The translations under genes and the position numbers were made by a program. From contig NZ_JARGEN010000012.1 of NCBI RefSeq assembly GCF_029211125.1, positions 43,791 to 107,790 of the forward strand: DNA of 64,000 bases. Direction: 5' to 3'. Positions 3,178 through 58,272 of this stretch are shown here, one piece after another; positions within the stretch are counted from its first letter, which is position 1, and each line of letters starts with the position of its first letter. The notes beneath the pieces are model-generated. The model did no database searches. It was given only the letters and a program-made list of their open reading frames with translations, and was not told the DNA's origin. The stretch comes from Curvibacter soli (GTDB lineage Bacteria > Pseudomonadota > Gammaproteobacteria > Burkholderiales > Burkholderiaceae_C).

Positions 3178-3416
3178 TTCAACCTGGAAACGGCAGTTGG
3201 ATGCGCCTGCCAGTGCCGTGATCGGGGTGCCAGGCAAGACGCGACGACGCGCTACTGCCCGCAAGGAGGAGCAACGCCGCATGGCGCGCCGAGCGCGGTG
3301 CTGGCAGGTGCATGGCGCTCTCACCCACGAGGCGAACGCCATCGAAGCCGTCAACGCTTGATTTCATGCGGCTTGTCAAGGGATACAAAGCGGTCAACTG
3401 CCGTTTCCAGGTTCAA
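3178..3416. mobile_element. MITE-like element, copy A, with 5-bp target duplication
   Basis: A 229-bp element (3183-3411) has perfect 17-bp terminal inverted repeats: CCTGGAAACGGCAGTTG at 3183-3199 and its complement at 3395-3411. It is flanked by the direct repeat TTCAA (3178-3182 and 3412-3416). The interior is about 90% identical to copy C (51514-51747) and shares both ends with copy B (36112-36429). It encodes no transposase, so it would be non-autonomous. Inside is a strong Shine-Dalgarno run (AAGGAGGAG, 3263-3271) before a 26-codon frame at 3281-3361. Found directly by comparing sequences in this window; transposase family unknown. Confidence 0.85.
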
Positions 3417-32411: not shown

Positions 32412-33200
32412 GTGAGCAGCATCCACCCCACCGCCATCGTCGATCCCCAGGCCGAACTCGACGACTCGGTCAGCGTCGGGCCGTACACCGTCATCGGGCC
32501 GCACGTGAAGGTCGGCACGGGCACCAGCATCGGCGCACATTGCGTGCTGGAAGGCCGCACCACCATTGGCCGCGACAACCGCATCTTCCAGTTCAACTCC
32601 ATCGGCGCGATTCCGCAGGACAAGAAGTACGCGGGCGAGCCGACCGGGCTGGTGATCGGCGACCGCAACACCATCCGCGAGTTCTGTACCTTCAACATCG
32701 GCGTGCCCGGGGCCGGCGGCATCACCACGGTGGGCGACGACAACTGGATCATGGCCTACACCCACATCGCGCACGACTGCCATGTGGGCCACCGCACCAC
32801 GCTGGCCAACAGCACCACGCTGGCGGGCCACGTGGAACTGGGCGACTGGGTCACGGTAGGCGGCCTCACGGGCATCCACCAGTTCGTGAAGGTCGGCGCG
32901 CACGCCATGGTCGGCTTCGCCAGCGCGGTGTCGCAGGACGTGCCGCCGTTCATGCTGGTGGACGGCAATCCGCTGGCCGTGCGCGGCTACAACACCGTGG
33001 GGCTGCGGCGGCGCGGTTTTTCCAGCGAGCGGCTGGCCGCCGTCAGGCAGATGCACAAGCTGCTGTACCGCGAGGGCCGCACGCTGGAGCAGGCGCGCGA
33101 GGCCATCCGCGCGCTGGCCGCGCAGACGCCCGCGGCCGCGGACGACGTGGCGCTGATGGACGGCTTCCTTGCCAACGCCACGCGCGGCATCGCGCGCTAG
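32412..33200 (+). CDS. lpxA: UDP-N-acetylglucosamine O-acyltransferase
   Basis: First step of lipid A synthesis, 262 aa. Left-handed beta-helix; starts [20 protein letters not shown] with GTG. Catalytic His in [20 protein letters not shown] (~residues 116-135), and the C-terminal helical domain begins at [15 protein letters not shown]. The stop (33198-33200) is immediately followed by a half-copy of a hairpin repeat that separates it from lpxB, a pair that is usually tightly linked. Confidence 0.97.
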
Positions 33201-33277
33201 TGCTGTGGTTTGCGCCTTGCCCTGCGCCAAAACGCATCGCTTTTATTTGTGCCGCCAAGCATCGAACACTGCACTAG
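33201..33277 (-). repeat. half-copy of the long-hairpin element (between lpxA and lpxB)
   Basis: Nearly identical, in reverse complement, to the left arm of the complete element at 54288-54453: CACTAG end, CGATGCTTGGCGGCACAAAT, GCGCAGGGCAAGGCGCAAAC. It begins at the base following the lpxA stop codon and ends with CTAG at 33277. Confidence 0.85.
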
Positions 33278-33302
33278 CTGGGAAGGAGTGGTGCAGCCCG
33301 CA

Positions 33303-33412
33303 GTTCCGCCGCCGGGCCGCCCCAGGGTGGAACGCGCCCCAAGCCCCAGCAAAGCGCAGGACGCGCCTGCGCTGGGGGGCAGCAGGGACACGCCAGTGCC
33401 GGACGTAGGGGC
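33303..33412 (+). repeat. ~110-bp repeat G, copy 1, overlapping the lpxB start
   Basis: About 75-80% identical by eye to 55817-55928. Shared blocks include CGCCGCCGGGC, GCCCCAAG, AAGCGCAGG, CGCCTGCGCT, GGGGCAG and GACACG. The GTG proposed to start lpxB (33396) is inside this repeat. Confidence 0.7.
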
Positions 33413-34547
33413 TCGCAGCTTCGCCATGGTCGCGGGCGAAGCCTCGGGCGACCTGCTGGCCGGCCTGCTGCTCGACGGTCTGCGCACGCGCTGGCCTGGC
33501 CTGCGCGCCGCAGGCATCGGCGGGCCGCAGATGGCGCGGCGCGGCTTCGACGCCTGGTGGCCGAGCGATCTGCTGGCGGTGCATGGCTACAGCATGGATG
33601 TGCTGCTGCGCCTGCGCGCGCTGCTGCGCATCCGCGCGCAACTGCGCGAACGGCTGCTGCGCGAGCGGCCCGCCGCGTTCATCGGCGTGGACGCGCCCGA
33701 CTTCAACTTCGGCCTGGAGGCCGCCCTGCGCGCCGGCGGCGTGAAGACCGTGCATTTCGTCTGCCCTTCCATCTGGGCCTGGCGGCCCGGGCGCGTGGAC
33801 ACGATCCGTGCCAGCGCCGACCACGTGCTGTGCCTGTTTCCGTTCGAGCCCGCGCTGCTGGCGCGCCACGGCATCGCCGCCACCTATGTCGGCCATCCGC
33901 TCGCCAGCGTCATCCCCCTGCAGCCCGACCGTGCCGGCGCGCGCGCGCGCCTGGGGCTGGGCGCGGACGACACCGTGGTGGCCTTGCTGCCGGGTAGCCG
34001 CAGGGCCGAGATCGCACACCTGGCTTCATGCTTCTTTTCGGCTGCAGCGCTCATGCAGAAAGCGCATCCAGCTATCAAATTCATAGTCCCCGCGGTTCCG
34101 GCGCTGCGCGGCATGGTCGAGCAGGCGGCGGCCCGGGCGGGCCTGGGCGATGCGCTGCGCATCCTCGACGGCCAGTCGCACGCGGCGCTCGAAGCCTGCG
34201 ACGCCACGCTGATCGCCAGCGGCACCGCCACGCTGGAGGCCGCGCTCTACAAGCGCCCCATGGTCATCGCCTACCGCATGGGCGGCCTGTCGTGGCGGCT
34301 CATGCGGCGCAAGCAGTTGCAGCCCTGGGTGGGCCTGCCCAACATCCTGAGCGGCGAATTCGTGGTGCCCGAGTTGCTGCAGGACGCGGCCACGCCCGCC
34401 GCCCTGGCGCGCGCCACGCTCGATTGGCTCGACGCGCCCGCGAAAACCCGGGCGCTCGAACACCGCTTCGCCGCGCTGCATGCAGAATTGCGGCGCGACA
34501 CCGCCACCCTTGCCACCGATGCGATCCAGAAAGTTCTTGAAGGCTGA
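33396..34547 (+). CDS. lpxB: lipid-A-disaccharide synthase
   Basis: GT19 glycosyltransferase joining UDP-diacylglucosamine and lipid X. About 383 aa from GTG 33396, just before the first strand [20 protein letters not shown]. Other blocks: [27 protein letters not shown], and [20 protein letters not shown]. The natural start region appears replaced by repeats; a longer frame from 33210 would add 62 residues encoded by repeat DNA and is unlikely. A dispersed repeat (34030-34086) is read in frame as [18 protein letters not shown] without lengthening the protein relative to my memory of E. coli LpxB. Confidence 0.94.
34030..34086 (+). repeat. dispersed palindromic repeat, copy 5, inside lpxB
   Basis: CTTCTTTTCGGCTGCAGCGC, spacer, AGCGC and CCAGCTATCAAATTCATAG match the family. 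Read in the same frame as the copies in dxr, the SpoU gene and DUF4149. Confidence 0.7.
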
Positions 34548-36023: not shown

Positions 36024-36111
36024 ATCGTCTCGTTTCCTTGCGCTTTTATTCTTGAATATCATTGTTTTAGAAGGATATTTCTTATTAGAATCTTCTCATA
36101 AATCAAATCAT
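36024..36111. other. AT-rich gap upstream of MITE copy B
   Basis: This 88-nt stretch is strikingly AT-rich compared with its surroundings (TTATTCTTGAATATCATTGT and TTCTTATTAGAATCTTCTCA). If MITE B is removed, it lies directly upstream of the HipA-like start codon and would have been its promoter and leader. No gene is visible. Confidence 0.5.
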
Positions 36112-36434
36112 CCTAAAAACGGCAGTTGGATGCGCCCGCCGGTGCCGCGATCGGGGTACCAGGCAAGGCTGAGCGCTGCGGCTCCAACAGCACCTGCGTG
36201 CTGTTGGACAGTGCGAAGAAGGCCTGTCTCCGACAGGCCTGCGCCCTGCAAGGGGGACGACGCGGCGGGCTACTGCCCGCAAGGAGGAGCAACGCCGCAT
36301 GGCGCCCTGGGCGCGGTGCTGGCGGGTGCATAGCGCTCTCACCCACAAGGTGAACGCCATCGGAGCCATCAACGATAGATTTCATGCGGCCTGGCAAGGA
36401 ATACAAAGCGGTCAACTGCCGTTTTTAGGATCAT
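36107..36434. mobile_element. MITE-like element, copy B, at the HipA-like start codon
   Basis: A 318-bp element (36112-36429) with perfect 17-bp terminal inverted repeats CCTAAAAACGGCAGTTG (36112-36128) and its complement (36413-36429). Target duplication ATCAT at 36107-36111 and 36430-36434; the second copy contains the ATG of the next gene. It carries ~85 bp absent from copies A and C, with two perfect internal hairpins: TCCAACAGCAC/GTGCTGTTGGA (36183-36208) and AGGCCTGTC/GACAGGCCT (36220-36240). No transposase. Confidence 0.87.
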
Positions 36435-51508: not shown

Positions 51509-51752
51509 GTCAGCCTAGAAACGGCAGTTGGATGCGCCTGCCGGTGCCGTGATCGGGGTGCCAGGCAAGGCGCGACGACGCGGCGGGCTACTGCCCGCAA
51601 GGATGAGCAACGCCGCATGGCGCGCCGAGCACGGTGCTGGCAGGTGCATAGCGCTCTCACCCATGAGGTGAACGCCATCGAAGCCGTCAACGCTTGATTT
51701 CATGCGGCTTGTCAAGGGATACAAAGCGGTCAACTGCCGTTTCTAGGGTCAG
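51509..51752. mobile_element. MITE-like element, copy C, at the GST stop codon
   Basis: A 234-bp element (51514-51747) with perfect 17-bp inverted repeats CCTAGAAACGGCAGTTG (51514-51530) and its complement (51731-51747). Target duplication GTCAG at 51509-51513 and 51748-51752; the right copy includes the TCA that is the GST stop codon on the minus strand. Interior closely matches copy A, including the 26-codon frame (51617-51697), although the Shine-Dalgarno reads AAGGATGAG. No transposase. Confidence 0.87.
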
Positions 51753-54246: not shown

Positions 54247-54292
54247 TGCTATCAAAAAAGTAGCTGCCAGCGCAATATCTACGGGCGCTAGT
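54247..54292 (-). repeat. dispersed palindromic repeat, copy 8
   Basis: TGCTATCAAAAAAGTAGCTG, CCAGCGCAATATCTACGGGC and GCTAGTG. Truncated at the GAGGCC end, where it runs directly into the long-hairpin element; the two share the CTAGTG junction. Confidence 0.75.
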
Positions 54293-54453
54293 GTAGTTTT
54301 CGATGCTTGGCGGCACAAATAAAAGCGATGCGTTTTGGCGCAGGGCAAGGCGCAAACCACAGCGATAGCCGTAGCTATCGCGAGGATTTGCAACGCCGCC
54401 ATGCGTCAAAAGGCGCGGTTTTATGTGCTGCTTAGCGTTGAACACTGCACTAG
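54288..54453. repeat. complete long-hairpin element (166 bp)
   Basis: The two halves are imperfect inverted repeats over nearly their whole length. The left starts CTAGTGTAGTTTTCGATGCT; the reverse complement of the right starts CTAGTGCAGTGTTCAACGCT. The centre is a perfect GCGATAGC-CGTA-GCTATCGC hairpin (54363-54382). Half copies occur at 33201-33277 and 57957-58032. It lies between the convergent HAD and hpnE genes and is followed by six T (54458-54463), so the transcript could act as a terminator. Mobile origin inferred. Confidence 0.75.
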
Positions 54454-55816: not shown

Positions 55817-55928
55817 GTTTCGCCGCCGGGCTGCCCGAAGGCGAAATGCGGCCCCAAGGCCAAGCGAAGCGCAGGGCACGCCTGCGCTTGGGGGCAGGCA
55901 GCGACACGAAGTGCGCGACCGTGGGGGT
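55817..55928 (+). repeat. ~110-bp repeat G, copy 2 (between hpnE and hpnD)
   Basis: Matches 33303-33412 in the same order of blocks (CGCCGCCGGGC, GCCCCAAGGCC, AAGCGCAGG, CACGCCTGCGCT, GGGGGCAG, GACACGAAGTGC). On the minus strand it occupies the hpnD-hpnE intergenic gap, which is otherwise without features. Confidence 0.7.
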
Positions 55929-57956: not shown

Positions 57957-58032
57957 GTGCAGTGTTCGATGCTTGGCGGCAACAATAAAAGCGATGTGTC
58001 TTGGCGCAGGGCAAGGCGCAAAGCACAGCGAT
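57957..58032 (+). repeat. half-copy of the long-hairpin element (upstream of tRNA-Leu)
   Basis: GTGCAGTGTTCGATGCTTGG, GCGATGTGTCTTGGCGCAGG, GCAAGGCGCAAAGCACAGCG: the left arm of the element at 54288-54453, ending at about the centre of its palindrome. It is fused to the 5' side of an adaptor-protein fragment. Confidence 0.8.
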
Positions 58033-58272
58033 ACTGGCTGCCTGCTCGCGCCCCGCGCCGGTGGAAGAGCCCTTGCGGGCTGTCAAGCTGCTGACCGTGG
58101 GCCTGGGCAGCTACGGCGCGCAGCGCGAATACGAGGGCGATGTGAAGGCGCGCGTGGAAAGTCGGCTGGGCTGTCGCGTGGCCGGCAAGATCGTGAAGCG
58201 CCAGGCCGAGCTGGGCCAACGTGTGAAGGCGGGCGACGTGCTGGCGCAACTCGACGCGGCGAGGCGAGTCGG
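58033..58272 (+). pseudogene. fragment of an RND-type periplasmic adaptor (HlyD/AcrA family)
   Basis: Encodes LAACSRPAPVEEPLRAVKLL, the tail of a lipoprotein signal (LAAC) and the linker. Then SRLGCRVAGKIVKRQAELGQ and RVKAGDVLAQLDA, the lipoyl/biotinyl half-motif of membrane-fusion proteins. About 75 of ~370 residues remain. The start of the signal peptide is replaced by the half-hairpin repeat, and the 3' side is cut before the tRNA-Leu promoter region. No permease gene follows. The remaining nucleotides to 58361 hold only the presumed tRNA promoter. Confidence 0.75.

Follow-up and report, generated by a model that had tools for sequence, protein, structure and literature searches.

We propose that lpxB in the window, that is, in the whole 64,000-nucleotide stretch of Curvibacter soli DNA analysed here, has received an in-frame insertion of a repeat, repeat G, just behind its native GTG start codon, and that its product carries a disordered, repeat-coded tail; on balance, this is the reading towards which we lean. 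Two unrelated small repeats would have entered the lpxA-lpxB junction. The first, a hairpin ending in CTAG, would have come to lie at the stop codon of lpxA and been shortened afterwards by the loss of its left arm, its only effect being a longer gap between the genes; the second, the palindromic and GC-rich repeat G of 111 bases, which is like the beta-proteobacterial repeat element (BRE), would have been inserted in frame behind the fourth lpxB codon, with retention of the native start, GTG 33291 (or GTG 33288), together with GGAAGGAG. The product would then consist of MQPA, 37 repeat-coded residues and RSFAMVAGE onwards, the extra residues forming a disordered tail ahead of the first strand.

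lpxA and the conserved beginning of the LpxB protein are separated by three segments: a hairpin fragment, 25 ordinary bases and repeat G. lpxA (positions 32412-33200 of the window, plus strand; 262 aa, GTG start) ends with a TAG at 33198-33200 that lies inside the terminal CTAG of the hairpin element, of which a deletion derivative (33197-33277, plus strand) is present, with seven left-end bases (CTAGTGC) joined to the right arm. Between both repeats is an apparent remnant of the native leader (33278-33302, plus strand; 25 bases), with AAGGAG at 33283-33288 and, directly behind GGAAGGAG, two in-frame GTG codons at 33288 and 33291 (33288-33293, plus strand) that the first-pass annotation missed; the second is our proposed native start. 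Repeat G follows (33303-33413, plus strand), its 111 bases forming 37 codons open in the lpxB frame, so that from GTG 33291 the frame runs across the repeat into the conserved body of lpxB (33414-34547, plus strand), which starts RSFAMVAGE and matches Pfam LpxB (E 7.9e-88) from residue 45 onwards, counting from GTG 33291. Without 33303-33413 the sequence reads GTG CAG CCC GCA CGC AGC TTC GCC ATG, an ordinary LpxB N-terminus of a length usual among relatives. The nearest named relatives of this LpxB are from the Comamonadaceae (e.g., Hydrogenophaga and Polaromonas); the genome of the window is a 3.36-Mb draft and the sole one of its genus in the comparison set. lpxB shares the frame of lpxA, with one TAG between them; a read-through LpxA-LpxB fusion was considered and rejected, as the shared frame is nothing special, being seen in 47 of the 175 distinct junctions of the family.

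Much of what had first been described at this junction stands. The half-hairpin repeat behind lpxA is real, extends here over 33197-33277 and has strong matches genome-wide; repeat G is common to the region at 55817 (33303-33411 and 55817-55927 are 80% identical, with E 8.6e-20 against a small local database), the GTG at 33396 (33396-33398, plus strand) lies inside it as described, and a frame longer by 62 residues does exist, starting at TTG 33210. The lack of an ATG ahead of the conserved strand is likewise correct, no in-frame ATG being found in 33201-33425, but it is not noteworthy, since 38 of the 175 distinct family junctions have none from the lpxA stop codon to the conserved strand. 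The central claim, that lpxB is translated from repeat-derived sequence, survives in part: most of the junction derives from repeats, and whichever GTG is used, LpxB probably has a repeat-coded part, but the start codon need not be donated by the repeat, because ahead of repeat G there is an in-frame GTG that has a Shine-Dalgarno stretch and because copies of G lie in frame within other genes.

The same in-frame GTG and its Shine-Dalgarno stretch stand against the view of the first-pass annotation, in which the insertion displaced the native start and the repeat donates both the start codon, GTG 33396, and its ribosome site. We regard this as rather unlikely, yet it has points in its favour: GTG 33396 is in frame in the repeat, AGGGAC precedes it by 6 nt (-4.7 kcal/mol), and it would yield an LpxB of ordinary length starting 7 residues ahead of the predicted first strand. 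The pairing available to GTG 33291 at the usual spacing is no better, at best about -3.8 to -4.9 kcal/mol (4-6 nt), and AAGGAG ends 2 nt before GTG 33291 and overlaps GTG 33288, which counts against the insertion that we prefer. Predictions of ribosome-site energy and mRNA accessibility do not discriminate between the two codons. Nor do they bear out the weak initiation once suggested: lpxA and lpxD, which belong to the same operon, have predicted Shine-Dalgarno energies and costs of opening the mRNA similar to those at both GTG 33291 and GTG 33396. At bamA and the upstream ompH-like gene the mRNA opens more easily. The comparable predicted sites and opening costs would also fit the use of both starts, GTG 33291 giving a long form and GTG 33396 a short one, but the differences among the predictions are too small to inform, and we consider such a dual start improbable. 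A start at TTG 33210 or GTG 33249 in the hairpin fragment, or at ATG 33426 in the first strand, seems more improbable still: no stop codon interrupts the frame behind that of lpxA, but at GTG 33249 Shine-Dalgarno pairing does not reach -2 kcal/mol and at TTG 33210 there is almost none, while initiation at ATG 33426 would remove half of the predicted first strand. With initiation at GTG 33291, LpxB would have 418 residues. In an AlphaFold model built with 18 sequences (mean pLDDT 79.3) residues 1-39 have pLDDT values below 50, and the repeat-coded part is for this reason predicted to be a disordered tail; the first strand covers residues 43-48. Long LpxB N-termini are tolerated, judging from the estimated extensions in other members of the family, which reach 45 residues against 44 in the window (from GTG 33291).

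The junctions of relatives provide a second line of evidence. We searched 190 loci and resolved 184 of the junctions, 175 of which were distinct after identical ones had been merged; L092 and L097 were omitted from one family comparison. Fetched stretches were of 571-895 bases; 109 longer loci were of 3.2-5.2 kb (median 5.1). A further 80 genomes were sampled best-first from the 292 of 299 that matched, 29 others came as loci, and the sample leans to nearer relatives. From the lpxA stop codon to the conserved strand the median distance is 40 bases and the 95th percentile 122 (184 junctions); the window, with 222, is second to L073, with 485, where inspection by eye suggests an additional small gene within the operon. 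Among the 190 loci the repeat profile matches the junction in L205, L223, L035 and the window. In each of the first three, a single ATG, GTG or TTG occurs between lpxA and the repeat, and it is in frame. In the window, the two GTGs of the native 25 bases are in frame as well; the hairpin fragment ahead of them contains starts both in and out of frame. An upstream start in frame in all four repeat-bearing junctions, which argues against initiation at GTG 33396, has a probability by chance of about 0.012, or 0.037 for the other three alone, assuming random frames and independent cases. L205, L223 and L035 also have in-frame GTGs in the 3' part of the repeat, so that the family cases are compatible with a start inside it.

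A start upstream of the repeat is conserved in relatives to a limited extent. L226, a congener of L223, lacks the repeat and has the identical TGACCGACCATG start, and so the native ATG occurs in a filled and an empty junction of one genus; two other congeners of L223 (L123 and L304) have different starts, the start of L205 is not shown by its congeners L230 and L303, and native starts are poorly conserved overall. L230, which is without the repeat, has GTGGTGCAA at the place matching the GTGs of the window, a weak parallel. Since the genus of the window is represented by one genome, there is no direct empty site for its lpxB. The repeat at the window junction belongs to the long subfamily of its own genome, whereas L205, L223 and L035 carry the short form; for this reason the four repeats look like separate insertions, as far as sequence comparison goes. 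That the junction is a hot spot for insertion is unproven: in the 109 longer loci and 5 kb of the window, a BRE model matched the junction twice (L035 and the window) and other places six times (L110, L112, L031 and three in L025), the remaining junction matches to this model coming from 571-base loci that hold little else. The L025 matches are three tandem BRE-like copies upstream of lpxA (22-260) in a Comamonadaceae MAG; a stretch in L027 is repeat-like by eye and is unmatched by the model.

Repeat G occurs in at least seven copies in the genome of the window, counted from searches that each scored the best 40 candidates: two are in the window, the second at 55817-55928 (plus strand) between two minus-strand genes (judged by eye from open frames), and other full-length copies are on contigs 79, 19, 54, 45 and 44. 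Four of the seven long copies lie between genes, one inside a gene and two at gene starts, the contexts being lpxA-lpxB, the intergenic copy at 55817, hisA-hisF, a response regulator-kinase junction, permease/Bmp-family genes, the start of gspI and the interior of an acyl-CoA synthetase gene. In the synthetase, the alignment to 5gxd breaks off after query residue 296 and is taken up again from 334, on either side at template residue 275; the 37 extra residues are repeat G, the frame is otherwise open and the N-terminal, AMP-binding and C-terminal Pfam domains are all three matched. The peptide encoded there includes AQDAPAPGG, compared with AQDAPALGG in lpxB. An unambiguous in-frame coding copy in the same genome argues against GTG 33396 as the start of lpxB. 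In gspI, repeat G lies in reverse orientation, in frame between a start in an ATGA overlap (MRT) and GFTLVEVLVA. The leaders of GspI are shorter in relatives, and a GTG in the repeat would give gspI a more usual leader length, a point in favour of repeat-donated starts; gspI too could start inside the repeat, but the ATGA overlap argues against this. Very probably, repeat G is translated elsewhere in the same genome, to judge from the reading frames: in the synthetase and, probably, in gspI. The hisA-hisF junction is filled by repeat G (L129, 1501-1610; contig 19 of G000), and the hisF ATG lies 5 bases behind the GTGGGGG of the repeat, which may thus supply the ribosome site of hisF; that the end of the repeat can occupy this position also speaks for a start at GTG 33396 in lpxB.

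A short form of repeat G is present in 50 of the 80 sampled family genomes, with matches mostly of 70-95 bases; about 11 candidates were scored per genome and the counts are lower bounds. Short copies also form tandem sets with a spacing of about 84-86 bases (e.g., G041:C30 and G063:C25), and L025 has three. The form found at lpxB is longer (110-117 bp) and has an enlarged middle hairpin. The openness of the repeat follows from its composition alone, which leaves it nearly stop-free in all frames; selection for stop-free frames was rejected, because openness matches that of dinucleotide shuffles. The 49 short copies have a mean of 5.43 of six frames open, against 5.37 in the shuffles, and 27 of them have no closed frame, the corresponding fraction of shuffles being 0.52; the seven long copies have a mean of 5.14 open frames, against 4.95, and the stretches flanking repeat copies 4.19. 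No special RNA fold was apparent for the lpxB copy, whose stability does not exceed that of shuffles (z 0.30), and the 55817 copy is somewhat more stable (z -1.84, with 5 of 200 shuffles as good). An Rfam search over 32900-33900 gave five matches, every one below its gathering score, and in a plasmid collection repeat G was unmatched, the hairpin element giving four partial matches.

By published description, not by sequence, repeat G resembles the BREs. These are described as 75-91 bp long, mostly intergenic, in tandem at some loci, in some cases overlapping gene ends and in others wholly within coding sequences (Hot et al. 2011, PMC3110155); the published element is located at 3605317-3605401 in B. 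pertussis. As a short, GC-rich repeat of Comamonadaceae genomes, with copies mostly of 70-95 bases and a tandem spacing of 84-86 bases, short G agrees with the parts of that account cited here (PMC3110155), and it has the size and the many copies expected; long G, at 110-117 bp, exceeds the range, so that the copy at lpxB would represent a longer subfamily with an enlarged middle hairpin. Tandem copies are found, and so are copies in coding sequence, in the acyl-CoA synthetase gene and probably in gspI. Rickettsia palindromic elements (RPEs) are described as palindromic repeats of about 150 bp with a conserved peptide, in frame in coding genes and kept in the product (PMC10969869). Repeat G is likewise a palindromic repeat in frame within protein-coding genes and retained in the product, but, set against this description, only part of its copies are coding and its openness follows from composition. 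We therefore suggest, comparing descriptions, that repeat G works like an RPE, and do not file it as one.

The other repeat is a different kind of element. Genome-wide, the half-hairpin had 40 strong matches including the query (the best 40 of 188 candidates being scored), and 41 copies laid out from 38 fetched loci and the window show a near-palindrome, CTAGTGCAGTGTTC...GAACACTGCACTAG; the strict full-length pattern CTAGTGCAGTGTTC...GAACACTGCACTAG, of 166-167 bp, was found in 21 of the 38 fetched loci. The window contains a full-length copy of 166 bp (54288-54453, minus strand) and a one-arm copy (57957-58033, minus strand). At 166 bp, near-palindromic, with dozens of copies, CTAG at both ends and one-arm derivatives, the element is like a MITE as outlined in the part of PMC10969869 used here, and it is a short, many-copy element with terminal inverted repeats (GTGCAGTGTTC). 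CTAG, either duplicated target or end of the element, flanks most of the ends; one end deviates in some copies, and in L221 one side carries TTAG. In the lpxA copy the left CTAG holds the lpxA stop TAG and the left arm is deleted, probably by loss between two GTGC words, since GTGCTGTGGTTTGCG occurs in the middle of the element in L132, L142 and L151. At the lpxA stop codon, CTAG is not rare, being present in 17 of the 175 distinct junctions. In the 109 longer loci and 5 kb of the window, the hairpin model matches the window only. A related full-length hairpin, in the opposite orientation and with a native ATG behind it, lies exactly at the lpxA stop codon in another genus (L221, G204), whose congener L220 (G109) is without it; in the junctions of L192 and L201 (G221 and G134) there is a third hairpin, a more distant one that has the middle of the element in common, with a native ATG downstream. 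Some hairpin elements (L146, L162 and L168) are directly followed by AAACGGCAGTTG words, and a third repeat family in the window (D1/D2; 187 nt and more) contains AAACGGCAGTTGGATGCG (3179-3415, 36108-36433 and 51510-51751).

That some BREs are located within coding sequences is already published (PMC3110155, in the part cited here). For their recurrence at lpxB and for the in-frame copies in gspI and the synthetase we found no earlier report in the open-licence literature. A vague claim of a repeat-donated start has become a sharp choice between two start codons 105 bases apart, and at BRE-bearing junctions in this bacterial family gene callers may misplace starts. Tentatively, and with somewhat more doubt than confidence, we would go further: the BRE-like repeats of the Comamonadaceae could be coding palindromes that insert repeatedly behind the starts of genes in tight operons, and the N-terminus of LpxB could evolve partly by their capture, a reading based on four lineages at lpxB and on gspI and the acyl-CoA synthetase in the genome of the window. 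The lpxB junction suggests that an N-terminal segment coded by a repeat can be tolerated in an essential enzyme.
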